Positions 2,216 through 7,700 of a stretch of DNA of 32,644 nucleotides are shown here, in pieces; within the stretch, counting starts at the first letter, position 1, and the number at the start of each line of letters is the position of its first letter. Source of the stretch: Acidobacteriota bacterium (GTDB taxonomy: Bacteria > Acidobacteriota > Vicinamibacteria > Vicinamibacterales > 2-12-FULL-66-21); assembly GCA_013813355.1 (NCBI GenBank), contig JACCRT010000045.1, forward strand, positions 1 to 32,644, given 5' to 3'. Both the position numbers and the translations under genes were made by a program. Under the pieces are notes generated by a model, which saw nothing but the letters and a program-made list of their open reading frames with translations, was not told the DNA's origin and ran no database searches.

Positions 2216-2974
2216 TCAGACCTCCCCGGGCCCCGCCTCTCCCGCGGCGCTCCCTGACACCCGCCCGGCGCCCCATGACGCCACCTTGTCCAGCTTGGTG
2301 TAGATCACCGGGATGATCGAGAACAGCGTGGCAAAGACGACCGTCAGGCCAAAGGCGTAGAAGAACTGCCCGATGATCCCGCCTATGAAGGCGATCGGCG
2401 TGAACACGACGAGGTTCGTGAGCGTCGACGCCGCCACGGCCAGCCCCACCTCCGCCGTGCCGTTCGCGGCTGCCTCCGCCGGCGAGCTGCCCGCGTCGAG
2501 ATGACGGTAGATGCTCTCCAGCACCACGATCGTGTTCGTGACCAGGATTCCGACGGTGATCCCAAGGACCATGAGCGTCATGACGTTGAGCGGCTGCGTC
2601 AGCCGGAGCGTCGCGTTCCAGGTGTTCGGCTGCCCAAAGGGAAGCGCGGCAAAGGGGTTCTCGTCGTCTCCGTTCCCGTTGCCGGGCGCGGGGAAGGTGA
2701 TGTCCTGGAAAAGCGATGCGAGCGTGCGGGTGTAATTCACCGTCGCGGTGAGCTGGGGCATCACACCGGCACGCACCTCCTGGATCTGCCCCTCGGCGCT
2801 CGCCTGTTGGGCACGGGACAATCCAACCTCCTCGCTGAGGGCCACCGCGCGGGACACGGCGGCATCGAGCGAGAGCACGAGCGGCACCGGCTCCTGCGCG
2901 GTGGCCGGCAGCCGCAGGCACAGGGGCGCCGCGCACGTGAAGAGCACCAGCGCGGGACGCGACATCGAACGCAC
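2216..2974 (-). CDS. Chimeric TolC-family / RND efflux permease remnant
   Basis: This open frame of 252 aa is built from pieces of two different efflux proteins. Residues 1 to about 128 look like the N-terminus of a TolC-type outer-membrane factor: a signal peptide ending near ATAQE, then a coiled-coil beginning (LDAAVSRAVALSEEV, GVMPQLTATVNYTR). From about residue 129 the sequence is RND permease membrane core (NVMTLMVLGITVGILV, VVLESIYRHL, ASTLTNLVVFTPIAF). Near residue 219 it jumps to what resembles the end of an RND protein (PVIYTKLD). It cannot be a working pump or channel by family standards, which need about 450 and 1050 aa. A GTG start at 2974 is preferred because AGAGG lies 7 nt upstream; ATG 2965 is possible. 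It follows the TetR-type gene closely, as an efflux operon would. It is either a deletion relic or an assembly artefact. Confidence 0.75.
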   Translation of the reverse strand: MRSMSRPALVLFTCAAPLCLRLPATAQEPVPLVLSLDAAVSRAVALSEEVGLSRAQQASAEGQIQEVRAGVMPQLTATVNYTRTLASLFQDITFPAPGNGNGDDENPFAALPFGQPNTWNATLRLTQPLNVMTLMVLGITVGILVTNTIVVLESIYRHLDAGSSPAEAAANGTAEVGLAVAASTLTNLVVFTPIAFIGGIIGQFFYAFGLTVVFATLFSIIPVIYTKLDKVASWGAGRVSGSAAGEAGPGEV

Positions 2975-3011: not shown

Positions 3012-3680
3012 TCACGCACGCTTCGCAAGCCCTCCGAAGACGATCTCGAGCTGGCCTGCCACCTCGCGACGGAACGCCCGCTCGGCGATGCCCCCGTTCA
3101 GCCAGTCGAGCATTGTCGTGAAGAAGGCCGCCTCGATGAGGCGTGCCGCGGCCTCCAGCCGCAACGACGGGTCCAGTTCACCCCTCGCGCGGCCAGCGGT
3201 CAGCGCGCTGCGCACCGAAGACTTGACGTGATGACTGAGCGGATCCTGCTGCGCGTCACGCCAGAAGTCGCGCAGGTTCTGGTTGAGCACGAGCCGGAAG
3301 ACGACCCGATCCTCCTGCGCGAGCCGGGCGAGCGTCAGCAGCAGTCGCACGACCTGCTCGCGGCACGTGCCGGACCAGGATTCGAACGTCCCGAGTTCGT
3401 CGAGGAGCCTCACGTGCACGTCGGACGCGAGCGCGTGGAGCAGCGACTCCTTGGAAGGGAAGTAGTTGAACACCGTCCCCTTGGCGACATCCGCGCGCTC
3501 GGCAATCTGCTCGACCGTCGTCGCCTCGTAGCCCTGCTTACGGAACAGCGCCACCGCCGCCTGGTGAATGCGGCGGTACACGTCGAGCTTGTGCCGCTCA
3601 CGCCGCCCGATGACGGGGTTGTGTGCTGGAGCCGGCCGACGTCCGCGTGGGCTGTCTGAAATGGGAGGCAAATTGACCAC
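3012..3680 (-). CDS. TetR/AcrR-family transcriptional regulator
   Basis: The protein is up to 222 aa with a classic TetR N-terminal DNA-binding domain. The helix-turn-helix runs from about residue 36 to 82 (AAVALFRKQGYEATTVEQIA, then ADVAKGTVFNYFPSKESLL). The all-helical C-terminal ligand domain is typical in length but does not reveal the ligand. The gene lies directly upstream of the efflux remnant, ending about 40 nt before its likely start, so its original job was probably to repress an efflux operon. The start is uncertain. The frame opens with GTG at 3680, inside a pair of direct repeats that look like an operator. TTG at 3671 is the next candidate, and no ATG is available before the HTH. 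No Shine-Dalgarno sequence is visible, so leaderless translation is possible. Confidence 0.88.
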   Translation of the reverse strand: MVNLPPISDSPRGRRPAPAHNPVIGRRERHKLDVYRRIHQAAVALFRKQGYEATTVEQIAERADVAKGTVFNYFPSKESLLHALASDVHVRLLDELGTFESWSGTCREQVVRLLLTLARLAQEDRVVFRLVLNQNLRDFWRDAQQDPLSHHVKSSVRSALTAGRARGELDPSLRLEAAARLIEAAFFTTMLDWLNGGIAERAFRREVAGQLEIVFGGLAKRA

Positions 3681-3705
3681 AGTTTAAAATTGACCAGAGT
3701 TCAAC
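3671..3705 (-). promoter_or_regulatory. Putative TetR operator: two direct repeats 17 bp apart
   Basis: AATTGACCACAGTT (3671-3684) is repeated as AATTGACCAGAGTT (3688-3701), matching at 13 of 14 positions with a 17-bp period. Each copy has TTGA/TCAA-type half-site character. The pair overlaps the proposed start of the TetR gene and is locally AT-rich in an otherwise GC-rich region. Autoregulation is the usual arrangement for this family; binding itself is inferred. Confidence 0.5.
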
Positions 3706-3785: not shown

Positions 3786-4229
3786 TCAGGAGGTTCGAGG
3801 ACGCCGGAGCCGGAATTCCCCGTGGTCCATGCGGCTCCGGTAGCGGAACACGAGCTCGGCGGCACTGCCGTGGCCGTCGAACTCGTAGGCGCCGCCCGCG
3901 GCCCAGCCGAGATCGGTCTTGCCGCTGAACGTGTAGCGATCGGGCCCGAGCTTCGCGGTGTGCAGGTCAGTGGCGTAGCAGGCGCGGAAGACCTTGGCAT
4001 AGCGGCCGCGGAACGTGCCCGCCCACCGCTCCGGCGTCAGCACCTCCATCACGCAGCGCAGCGGCCCGCGGTGGCCAGTGGCCGCGCTGATCCACTCACC
4101 CTCCCAACGCCCGGACATGTCTTCCCGATCGTCGGGAACTCCGGCCGCCTTCCACCGGGCGTAGAACTCCTTGCAGTTCGAACGGAGCGGCGCCAGCAGG
4201 TGCTTGGCGTTCTCGAGCACCCGGCGCAT
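3786..4229 (-). CDS. Conserved hypothetical protein, about 147 aa
   Basis: I do not recognise a named family. The protein is soluble and has no signal peptide. The N-terminal 35 residues look helical and basic. After that comes a beta-rich segment with the pattern GRWEGEWISAATGHRG, LRCVMEV, WAGTFRGRYAKVFRACY and DRYTFSGKTDLG. Such alternation of short strands would fit a small beta-barrel or lipocalin-like fold, but this is inference. I chose ATG 4229 because AAGGG lies 5 nt upstream. An ATG at 4259 would add ten residues and also has GAAGG 7 nt upstream, supplied by the last unit of the heptamer repeat. It lies downstream of the S9 peptidase on the same strand, separated from it by that repeat. 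Confidence 0.6.
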   Translation of the reverse strand: MRRVLENAKHLLAPLRSNCKEFYARWKAAGVPDDREDMSGRWEGEWISAATGHRGPLRCVMEVLTPERWAGTFRGRYAKVFRACYATDLHTAKLGPDRYTFSGKTDLGWAAGGAYEFDGHGSAAELVFRYRSRMDHGEFRLRRPRTS

Positions 4230-4266
4230 GCTTTCCCTTCGATCCTTCGAGGCCTTCATCCTTTTT

Positions 4267-4309
4267 CCTTCAGCCTTCAGCCTTCAGCCTTCAGCCTTCA
4301 GCCTTTCAG
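4267..4309. repeat. Tandem heptamer repeat, five perfect CCTTCAG units plus one degenerate
   Basis: Five exact units run from 4267 to 4301, followed by an 8-nt variant (CCTTTCAG). The array contains the stop codon of the S9 peptidase gene (4298-4300) and supplies a GAAGG ribosome-binding-like sequence to the hypothetical gene downstream. It resembles the short tandemly repeated repetitive heptamers described in other bacteria. Confidence 0.85.
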
Positions 4310-6361
4310 AAGATGCTTCTGCAGCCACCCGAACACCGCCTCGTGCCAGTACCGGCTGTTGAGCGCCTTGAGGACCCAGTGCCCTTCGTCGGGGAACACG
4401 ATCGCCTCGGCCGGCACGCCGTTGCGCCGCAGCGCGGTGAACATCTGCAGGCCCTGGTCGACAGGGACACGGTAGTCGAGTTCGTTCGTGATGATGAGCG
4501 TGGGCGTCTTGATCCGGTGGGCGTGATGGTGCGGCGAGAACTTCGCGAACTGTTCGCGCGCCCTCGAATCCCACGGGCGCCCGTGGAACTCCCACTCCGT
4601 AAACCACAACTCTTCGGTTGACAGGCTCATCGACTCGAGGTTGAACACGCCGTCGTGCGAGACGGCCGCCCGGAACCGGTCCGGCTGCTGACTGATGATC
4701 CAGTTGACGGCGTAGCCGCCATAGCTCGCGCCGGCTACCCCCATCCGCCCGGCGTCGACGAAAGGCATCGCGGAGACGGCCTGGAAGACGGCGTCGAGGT
4801 CCGTCATGACCTTTCCCGCCCAGTCGCCGGTGATCTCGTCGACGAATTGCTGGCCGAACCCAGTCGATCCACGGGGATTCGGCGCGGCGACGACGTAACC
4901 CTGCGCGGCCCACAGCGCCGGGTTCCAGCGCGTGGACCAGGCGTCCATCCACGCACCTTGCGGACCGCCGTGAATGAGAAACACGACGGGGTAACGGCGG
5001 GAGGGATCAAAGCCGGGCGGCCGAATCAACCAGTACTGGATTGGGTCCTGCCCGTCACCAGCAACGGTCCGGCTCTCCGGTTCAGCGAACGCCACTTCCT
5101 TCATCCATGATGCGTTCGCCCGGGTCAGGGGCCGCAGGGCGGCGCCATCGAGACCTGCGCGGTAGATGTCGGGTGGAGCCGTCAGGGACGATCGCGAGAA
5201 GACGAGAGCGTCCGCACCGACCTGGATGCTCGAGATCATCCCTCCCTGCATGACGCGGACGGGTTCGCCGCCGGCCGCTGGAAGTCGAAACAGGTTCTCG
5301 CGCCCTTCCTGCTGCGCCGTGAACCAGATCGTGCTGCCATCCTTTGAGAGCGAGTAGTGGCCGAGCGAGAGGTCGGGCGTCGTGAAAAGCGTGCGCGTCG
5401 TCCGGCTGGCCAGGTCGTACGCGTCGAGGTACCAGCGGTCCGACTCGAACGCGGCACGGCGCTGCGCCCGGACGAACAGCGTCCGCCCGTCCCGTGAGAA
5501 CACCGGCTCGACGTCGGCGGCCGGGTTAGCGGTAATCTTCCGCGCGTCCCCGCCCGTGACGGGCACCATCCAGATGTCGGTGTTGGTCGTCCACGCCTCG
5601 CGATCGTTGCCCTCGCGGTTCGAGACGAAGGCCACGTGCTGGCTGTCAGGCGAGAAGGCAATCGCCGCGTCTTCCTGGAAGTGCGGGGGTGAATCGTAGT
5701 CGCCAGGCGTGAGGTCCCGCGCCTCGCCACCCTCAACACCGACGGCGAAGATGTGGTGACGCGTGTTCTCGCGCCACGAATCCCAATGGCGGTAGAGCAG
5801 GCGCGTCAGGCGGCGCGCCTTCACGGGGTTCTGTTCCGCCTCCTCCATCCGGCGCCGGTTGCAGGCCTCGTCCGGGCAGTCGGGATAAACGTCCGAGACA
5901 AAGACGACCGTCCGGCCATCGGGTGAAAACACGAGCGGCGGCTGGACGCCACGCGCGAGGTCCGTCAGCTGCCTGACATTGCCGCCATCGGCGGCCGCCA
6001 GGTAGACCTGCGGGGCGCCATCCCGGGCAGAGATGAACGCGATCCGCGTGCCGTCGGGCGAAAAGCGCGGCGTGCTCTCGCCGCGCGGCCCGCCAATCAG
6101 CTCCCTCGGCTCCGATGATCCGTCCGCAGGAACGACCCAGATATCCGCGTTGCGCGCGCCGGTCTTCAAGTCCGTCGTCGTGCGCACGAACGCCACCGTG
6201 TGGCCGTCGGGGGAGAGCTGCGGGTCCGCGATACGGACCGCCCCGATCAGGTCGTCGATCGCCATCGGCCGGCCGGCCGGCGCCTGTGCGTTCAGGAGCC
6301 CCACGGCCCCTGCGAGGACGCAGACCGACAGCAGGATGCGGGAGAGATTACGGAGCGCCAT
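4298..6361 (-). CDS. Secreted S9-family prolyl oligopeptidase (acylaminoacyl-peptidase / dipeptidyl-peptidase type)
   Basis: This 687-aa serine peptidase has an N-terminal signal peptide that appears to end near LLNAQA (about residue 26). Residues 35-400 form a WD40/PD40-type beta-propeller with repeated SPDG, FSPDGTRIAF and FSRDGRTLF blades. Residues 430-687 form the alpha/beta-hydrolase catalytic domain. Ser546 lies in GASYGGYA, Asp629 in NELDYRVP and His661 in DEGHW, completing the catalytic triad. Such enzymes release short peptides or acylated residues from oligopeptides; the signal peptide places this one in the periplasm or outside. It starts 3 nt after the stop of the four-helix membrane gene, so the two are almost certainly co-transcribed. 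Its last codons lie inside the heptamer repeat. Confidence 0.93.
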   Translation of the reverse strand: MALRNLSRILLSVCVLAGAVGLLNAQAPAGRPMAIDDLIGAVRIADPQLSPDGHTVAFVRTTTDLKTGARNADIWVVPADGSSEPRELIGGPRGESTPRFSPDGTRIAFISARDGAPQVYLAAADGGNVRQLTDLARGVQPPLVFSPDGRTVVFVSDVYPDCPDEACNRRRMEEAEQNPVKARRLTRLLYRHWDSWRENTRHHIFAVGVEGGEARDLTPGDYDSPPHFQEDAAIAFSPDSQHVAFVSNREGNDREAWTTNTDIWMVPVTGGDARKITANPAADVEPVFSRDGRTLFVRAQRRAAFESDRWYLDAYDLASRTTRTLFTTPDLSLGHYSLSKDGSTIWFTAQQEGRENLFRLPAAGGEPVRVMQGGMISSIQVGADALVFSRSSLTAPPDIYRAGLDGAALRPLTRANASWMKEVAFAEPESRTVAGDGQDPIQYWLIRPPGFDPSRRYPVVFLIHGGPQGAWMDAWSTRWNPALWAAQGYVVAAPNPRGSTGFGQQFVDEITGDWAGKVMTDLDAVFQAVSAMPFVDAGRMGVAGASYGGYAVNWIISQQPDRFRAAVSHDGVFNLESMSLSTEELWFTEWEFHGRPWDSRAREQFAKFSPHHHAHRIKTPTLIITNELDYRVPVDQGLQMFTALRRNGVPAEAIVFPDEGHWVLKALNSRYWHEAVFGWLQKHLLKG

Positions 6362-6364
6362 GCC

Positions 6365-6823
6365 TTACCACCCGAACAGCGCGCGGCCGGCGGGCATGCC
6401 GGGCCACGGAATCGAGACGAGAATCGCGAGAAGGGCGAGACCGTAGAAGATTGCCGCGGTGCGGTGCTTCCGCGCCGCGGGAGCCCTGCGGGAGCGGACG
6501 CGGCCGATGTGGGCCAGCGCGGCGCCGACGATCATGCCGAAGGTGTGCTCCACGGCCCAGAAGCGCAAGACGGAGTTGCGCATGGCGCCGCCGAAGTCCT
6601 CGAAGGCCCCGGTCGTGAGCGGGCTCAGGAAGAAGTACAGCACCAGGCCGATCAGCACCTGCAGGTCGAGCGTCGCGACGAACCAGAACCCCGCCCGTTC
6701 ATCGACCCGTGTCCAGGCCCTGACGCCCGACCAGCCGCCCATACCGCGGACGAGGGCGAAGAGCCCCGCAAGAATGACAGCCCAGCGAAGCCAGGAGTGG
6801 AGGAGCAGAACTGTGGAATACAT
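6365..6823 (-). CDS. Four-helix membrane protein, cytochrome-b-like hypothetical
   Basis: The protein is 152 aa with four hydrophobic helices at about residues 4-26, 45-67, 88-108 and 122-140. It carries histidines close to the membrane in helix 1 (LLHSWLRW, His9) and helix 3 (AVEHTFG and ALAHIG). The layout, with the opening LLLHSWLRW, resembles small uncharacterised proteins often annotated as cytochrome B; heme binding is unproven. The ATG at 6823 has no Shine-Dalgarno but sits 6 nt after a TACAAT box, suggesting a leaderless message. It is the first gene of a two-gene unit with the S9 peptidase, 3 nt apart. No functional link between the two is evident. Confidence 0.72.
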   Translation of the reverse strand: MYSTVLLLHSWLRWAVILAGLFALVRGMGGWSGVRAWTRVDERAGFWFVATLDLQVLIGLVLYFFLSPLTTGAFEDFGGAMRNSVLRFWAVEHTFGMIVGAALAHIGRVRSRRAPAARKHRTAAIFYGLALLAILVSIPWPGMPAGRALFGW

Positions 6824-6829
6824 TGGGTC

Positions 6830-6835
6830 ATTGTA
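6830..6835 (-). promoter_or_regulatory. -10-like box TACAAT, 6 nt before the start codon
   Basis: Read on the minus strand this is TACAAT, followed by six bases and then the ATG at 6823. Transcription starting about 7 nt downstream of the box would begin on the start codon. The same box and spacing precede the M28 peptidase gene at 20020. Confidence 0.5.
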
Positions 6836-6838
6836 GTC

Positions 6839-7690
6839 TCAGGGTGCAGCGGGGTGCTGTTTTGCCCCTCTCCCCTCGATCGCAGCAACAAACGCGTCGA
6901 TGGCCCTCCAGTACTGCACGGGATTCACGAGGTGCAGGTCATTGTGGTCGGCGCCGGGAATCGGGACGAAGGTCTTGCGGGTGCCGCGGGCTTCCTCGAA
7001 AACCCGGCGACCCGCGCGAAACGGGATGATTCGATCGGCGTCGCCGTGGATGACGAGCAGCGGGCCGTCATACTCCTCGAGGAACCGGGATGTCGGGAAG
7101 CGGTAGCTGGAGAACAGGTGCAGGAACCGCATCACGGGGTTGCGGCCGATGATGGCGATGACGTCGGCGAAAGGGCTCTCGAGGACGAGGGCGTCAGGCG
7201 GCGCTTTGCTGGCCGTGTAGGCCGCGACAGGTGCCCCGATCGAACGCCCCCAGTGAATGACCGGTACGCCTGGCGTACGCAGCCGCTCCTCGAAGACCCG
7301 CAGCGCGGCGTCGGCGTCGCGGTAGAGCCCCTGCTCACTGGGCCGGCCCGTGCTCGCGCCGAAGCCGCGGTAGTCCACCGCGAGCACGCTGAAGTCCTGG
7401 CGGCGCAGCCCGGCGATCACATCGAGCCACAGCGCGAGGTTGCCGCCGTTGCCATGCCAGAAGATGACCTGCGCGCGTGGCTCCGGCGCCGGGAGCCACC
7501 AGGCATGCAGCGTCTCGCCATCCGCCGTCTCGATCGCCACGTCCTCGAAGTCCAGCTTGAACACTGCCGGGGTCTGCTGCACTCCCTCGAGCGGGAAGAA
7601 CGCCATGCGCGGCTCGAGCCACCACACCAGCAGCTTGAGGCCGACAATGGCGACACCGATCGTGATGGCGAGGCGCATGGGTCTTCGCAT
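6839..7690 (-). CDS. Alpha/beta hydrolase (Bem46/FrsA-like), membrane-anchored
   Basis: The protein is 283 aa and opens with one hydrophobic helix (about residues 6-25), which could anchor it to the inner membrane. The hydrolase fold follows: the oxyanion HGNGGNL motif, the nucleophile elbow GRSIGAP, the acid in HGDADRIIP, and the catalytic His in PGADHNDLH. This order matches serine hydrolases of the Bem46/ABHD13 type; the substrate cannot be read from sequence. ATG 7690 is chosen over a TTG at 7699. ATG 7678 is also possible, and no clear ribosome-binding site separates them. The start abuts a long palindromic repeat element, so the promoter would have to lie in or before that element. It ends 15 nt before the start of the next minus-strand gene. 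Confidence 0.85.
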   Translation of the reverse strand: MRRPMRLAITIGVAIVGLKLLVWWLEPRMAFFPLEGVQQTPAVFKLDFEDVAIETADGETLHAWWLPAPEPRAQVIFWHGNGGNLALWLDVIAGLRRQDFSVLAVDYRGFGASTGRPSEQGLYRDADAALRVFEERLRTPGVPVIHWGRSIGAPVAAYTASKAPPDALVLESPFADVIAIIGRNPVMRFLHLFSSYRFPTSRFLEEYDGPLLVIHGDADRIIPFRAGRRVFEEARGTRKTFVPIPGADHNDLHLVNPVQYWRAIDAFVAAIEGRGAKQHPAAP

Positions 7691-7700
7691 GAGAGTCAAC

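Follow-up and report, generated by a model that had tools for sequence, protein, structure and literature searches.

An in-frame chimera of outer-membrane-factor and RND permease sequence behind a tetR gene: probable remnant of an efflux operon in an Acidobacteriota contig

RND permeases are built from two internal repeats, and the full protein has 12 transmembrane (TM) helices and two large periplasmic loops; in a tripartite efflux operon, the permease is encoded together with a membrane-fusion protein (MFP) and an outer membrane factor (OMF), whose two OEP repeats (PF02321) form a barrel and a helical tunnel. The closest system to the locus described here is the TetR-regulated HAE-1-type RND operon, for which we use as reference an intact copy in a genome of the same order (G017, contig C21), referred to below as L033. 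It carries the genes for TetR, OMF, MFP and RND permease in this order on one strand, and its permease aligns over the full length with E. coli-type MdtB (E 2e-119).

The window analyzed here, 32,644 nucleotides, is the whole of contig C4 of a draft assembly (G000; 1.22 Mb, 60 contigs, 57% complete). On its minus strand, an open frame runs from 2974 to 2216, encoding 252 aa from GTG 2974 or 249 aa from ATG 2965, with the stop at 2216-2218 and no stop within. It is composed of three pieces joined in frame: an OMF N-terminus, about 90 RND permease residues spanning TM4 to TM6, and the C-terminal end of an RND permease, approximately its last 33 residues (Table 1).

Table 1. Features of the chimeric frame and the adjacent regulator, in window coordinates
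Feature	Coordinates	Strand	Match or remark
Two tandem 17-bp copies, AAATTGACCACAGTTTA / AAATTGACCAGAGTTCA	3670..3703	-	at tetR promoter/start
TetR-family regulator, intact, 222 aa	3012..3680	-	Pfam TetR_N 3-47/47, E 2.4e-18
Piece 1: TolC-type OMF, N-terminal ~126-129 residues	2588..2974	-	55% identity to L033 OMF 9143-8784; OEP 1-74/187
Junction 1 (QPL/NVMTLM)	~2587/2588	-	L033 gap 3244 bp
Piece 2: RND permease, 90 codons, TM4-TM6 of first membrane repeat	2318..2587	-	ACR_tran; 85.6% identity to L033 5539-5270
Junction 2 (TLFS/IIPVIY)	~2317/2318	-	L033 gap 1614 bp
Piece 3: RND permease, last ~33 codons (IIPVIYTKLDK...) and stop	2216..2317	-	14/19 identical to L033 RND C-terminus 3655-3599

The first-pass annotation of this DNA had read the frame as an in-frame chimera of TolC-type and RND proteins left behind a TetR regulator, and both Pfam and the comparison with the G017 operon confirm this. 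In Pfam, the RND part matches positions 383-476 of the 1021-position ACR_tran profile (PF00873; E 1.1e-23, 83 bits against a cut-off of 28), and the OMF part matches OEP weakly and below cut-off (E 0.005). This weak assignment is nevertheless certain, because residues 6-127 align with the intact G017 OMF at E 9e-34 and 55% identity. The retained sequence thus belongs to the ACR_tran family within that profile stretch only: about 123 of roughly 1035 permease residues remain, with three helices and no porter domain, far from the full protein. Likewise, 74 of the 187 positions of a single OEP repeat do not make an outer membrane factor, and with the MFP missing at the locus there is no tripartite efflux operon. 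The start of the frame resembles a signal peptide, with GAGG 7 nt before GTG 2974, both as read from the sequence.

Aligned by blastn, the window and L033 share four collinear segments (E 2e-73, 3e-33, 6e-23 and 5e-11) in equal order and on the same strand; the match at the C-terminal piece is 78% over 78 bp, and the TetR proteins are 48% identical over their whole length, alongside the values for the OMF and RND pieces in Table 1. Since the pieces and TetR align collinearly with L033, the earlier three-piece assignment is right. Gene order, strand and retained sequence are alike, but the window lacks about 4.9 kb of the L033 operon, comprising most of the OMF, all of the MFP and most of the RND gene. 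The stretch missing at junction 1 holds the rest of the OMF, the whole MFP and the first third of the RND gene, and that at junction 2 amounts to 538 RND codons; here the first half of TM6 runs on into the second half of TM12, at almost equivalent places in the two repeats of the permease. This collinearity and these gaps support the proposal that a TetR-controlled TolC/MFP/RND operon lost several kb in two deletions, and both junctions fall inside the ranges given for them at first pass.

The regulator itself has the N-terminal helix-turn-helix domain of the TetR family, and its true start may be slightly downstream of GTG 3680. The minus-strand core ACTGTGGTCAAT of the 17-bp repeats also occurs upstream of tetR in L033, and the tandem copies are candidate TetR operator half-sites.

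Comparison of the locus with relatives, which had also been suggested, yielded the intact collinear operon in one genome: among 60 relatives, G017 alone matched both halves of the frame, on one contig and 3.2 kb apart, and among the 162 genomes of the order no other carried the intact operon. In a scan of genome contigs, RND relatives of the operon were found in Gemmatimonadota MAGs (L022-L029), where the permeases are 77-84% identical to the RND piece of the window and six of the eight loci have an OMF gene upstream, on the same strand; unlike the window, these loci hold unfused frames of about 960-1100 codons. The operon may plausibly have been acquired horizontally.

The lost OMF, MFP and RND stretches were not found elsewhere in the assembly, and we rejected the idea that they had been split onto another contig. 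Across all contigs of G000, ACR_tran has a single match, which is the fragment itself, OEP has none above cut-off, so that there is no intact OMF gene, and the only trace of the MFP is a distant 29% match at C8:3524-4087. This last, an MFP-like frame with one internal TGA, may be a further broken export gene. The single ACR_tran match in 1.22 Mb compares with 7-43 first-look candidates per relative in genomes of 2.5-7.5 Mb, so the assembly is poor in such pumps; the low count may reflect either a pump-poor genome or incompleteness.

The contig around the frame is of ordinary appearance. Members of the same family carry the sulfatase-TPR gene (54-2141) at 57-62% identity, and in other family members the genes at 3786-4259, 6365-6823 and 6839-7699 are neighbors too. 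Because the flanking genes at 54-2141 and 3786-7699 fit the family, the contig belongs to the lineage, and a foreign origin of the contig was rejected; between the conserved flanking genes of other family members, no efflux operon was matched. Among the 20 other predicted genes on the contig that were scanned with Pfam, those with matches lack a comparable truncation and the matches mostly cover most of the profile, so scrambling is not a general feature of the contig.

We then consider how the frame has evolved. Over the 90 codons of the RND piece, 38 third positions differ from L033 as against 13 differences at first and second positions together, giving dN 0.077, dS 0.82 and a dN/dS of about 0.09, an ordinary purifying-selection signature, and GC3 is 0.91, as in intact genes. 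When eight outgroup sequences were used to place the derived amino acids of the RND piece, 2 fell on the window branch, 4 on the G017 branch and 7 were ambiguous, and the OMF piece has 16 on each of the two branches; in pieces this short, a modest recent relaxation would escape such a test. Given the purifying signature and the lack of an excess on its own branch, nearly all evolution of the RND piece would have taken place inside an intact pump, and with nearly all the divergence of each piece accrued in a working pump the fusion is either very recent or an artefact. The deletions, if real, would be recent.

The fused architecture across the junctions was absent from the 60 relatives, the 162 genomes of the order and 396 of the phylum. 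In a genome-contig scan with peptide patterns, among them the junction peptide PLNVMTLM, 11 loci came up, each matched through the RND part; no place among 72,556 plasmids covered 80% of the query; and the exact junction-1 33-mer had no match in viral contigs, which says little. With no second case among relatives, order, phylum, genome contigs or plasmids, the fusion as an existing family was rejected, and nothing in these searches places the frame in a conserved fusion-protein family, which would show the same architecture in several genomes. A literature search on chimeric deletion remnants gave nothing useful.

Several further statements of the first-pass annotation can be set against these results. 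It had named a full-length family of this exact architecture in many genomes as what would overturn its reading, and no second genome was found. The Ka/Ks analysis it had called for gave the low ratio above, with no excess on the piece's own branch. Its suggestion that the frame decays slowly is unsupported, as evolution of the RND piece was neither relaxed nor accelerated on the window branch, and so is the suggestion of a micro-protein, with no such rate shift in the RND piece and no genome found to share the architecture. It had also placed the joins where both partners could share similar codons, which the junctions do not demonstrate: bases shared according to the homologues are at most the 5-bp CGCTC at junction 1 and ATC at junction 2, and with L033 as proxy the breakpoints agree in 7 of 16 and 6 of 16 bases, respectively, compared to about 5.3 of 16 expected for random in-frame breakpoints (P 0.26 and 0.46). 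A one-codon shift raises junction 2 to 10 of 16, which was discounted since nine shifts were tried. Junction microhomology as the mechanism was therefore rejected, the similarity to the L033 proxy not exceeding that of random in-frame breakpoints.

The locus is probably the wreck of a TetR-regulated tetR-OMF-MFP-RND operon, in which two deletions left three scraps that stand in one frame by chance. The composition of the locus, its order, its collinearity with L033 and the absence of the missing stretches from the rest of the assembly are direct observations. A deletion of about 3.2 kb would have removed the end of the OMF, all of the MFP and the start of the RND gene, and one of about 1.6 kb most of the remaining RND gene; the simplest cause would be recent illegitimate recombination in the organism, with little or no sequence homology. 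If frame did not matter, both deletions would be in frame with a chance of 1/9, which is no strong argument. Besides this chance, the incompleteness of the assembly and the lack of clear junction microhomology count against such a collapse, and the absence of a decay signal requires that the deletions be recent. An intact operon falsely joined would likewise show no decay, and it is conceivable, at well under even odds, that the organism has the intact operon and that the contig was joined wrongly, twice within 270 bp, by an assembly or amplification artefact (a chimeric amplification product or mis-joined fragments). The draft state of the assembly, with its 60 contigs, favors such an artefact, as does the comparison of only one assembly of the genus, which leaves no replicate. 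Against it, no other contig holds the missing OMF, MFP and RND sequence, the few bases at most shared by the breakpoints are too short for the usual k-mer collapse, the remaining contig looks normal, and two neighboring false joins would, by coincidence, both have to keep the frame and the order of the operon.

Selection for the fusion, with the chimera expressed under TetR control as a micro-protein that is exported or sits in the membrane, is very unlikely. Both junctions are in frame without a stop, the ribosome-binding site ahead of GTG 2974 is plausible, an intact regulator lies upstream and, by its sequence, the joined TM6/TM12 helix remains hydrophobic; yet none of the genome and plasmid collections searched holds a second case, the substitution pattern shows no post-fusion change, and each piece lacks parts that its parent's function needs. 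We give slightly less credence still to the proposition that the frame is expressed as a small, exported membrane protein of three helices with an OMF N-terminus, a new protein born by collapse of the operon and still TetR-controlled after the loss of the pump. Least credible is an older, slowly decaying pseudogene: three scraps of an operon are a typical stage of gene loss, and ACR_tran matches nothing else in the assembly where the relatives give 7-43 first-look candidates per genome, but long decay would raise non-synonymous changes and bring stops or frameshifts, and the GC3, the dN/dS and the derived residues of the RND piece show no such trend. Returning to collapse by deletion, the 252-aa product, an OMF N-terminus with three TM helices, is unable to pump and probably non-functional, and the intact TetR is probably still in control of its own promoter.

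An efflux operon lost through large deletions is a case of ordinary gene loss, of little significance alone. Such a remnant can pass for a new fusion gene in annotation, of which this locus is a clear example, and comparison with the intact operon together with the branch-rate test makes it clear that this one is probably no new fusion gene. Were it expressed, two genes of a single operon would have given direct rise to a new frame.

Two short repeats were noted elsewhere on the contig. An inverted repeat at 1-52 (GTGTCCTCCGTGGTT ... AACCACGGAGGACAC) opens it, just past the end of the sulfatase-TPR gene, and resembles a terminator hairpin where the contig breaks off; a short tandem CTTCAGC run (ccttcagccttcagccttcag...) occupies 4260-4300, between the genes at 3786-4259 and 4298-6361.

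A separate observation concerns the intact RND permeases of this subfamily. In AcrB, substitution of proton-relay residues abolishes export (PMC8277102). MdtB and AcrB have the proton-relay Asp-Asp pair (D407/D408) in TM4, and the relay Lys (K940) is expected in TM10, whereas in the nine intact loci inspected (L022-L029 and L033) TM4 reads VTNT, with Thr-Asn in place of the Asp pair, and TM10 reads GIVVNNAI, with Asn where Lys is expected. Because the AcrB substitutions abolish export, the energization of these pumps is in question, and an RND subfamily without the proton-relay residues, unrelated to the fusion, may merit more attention than the fusion itself.
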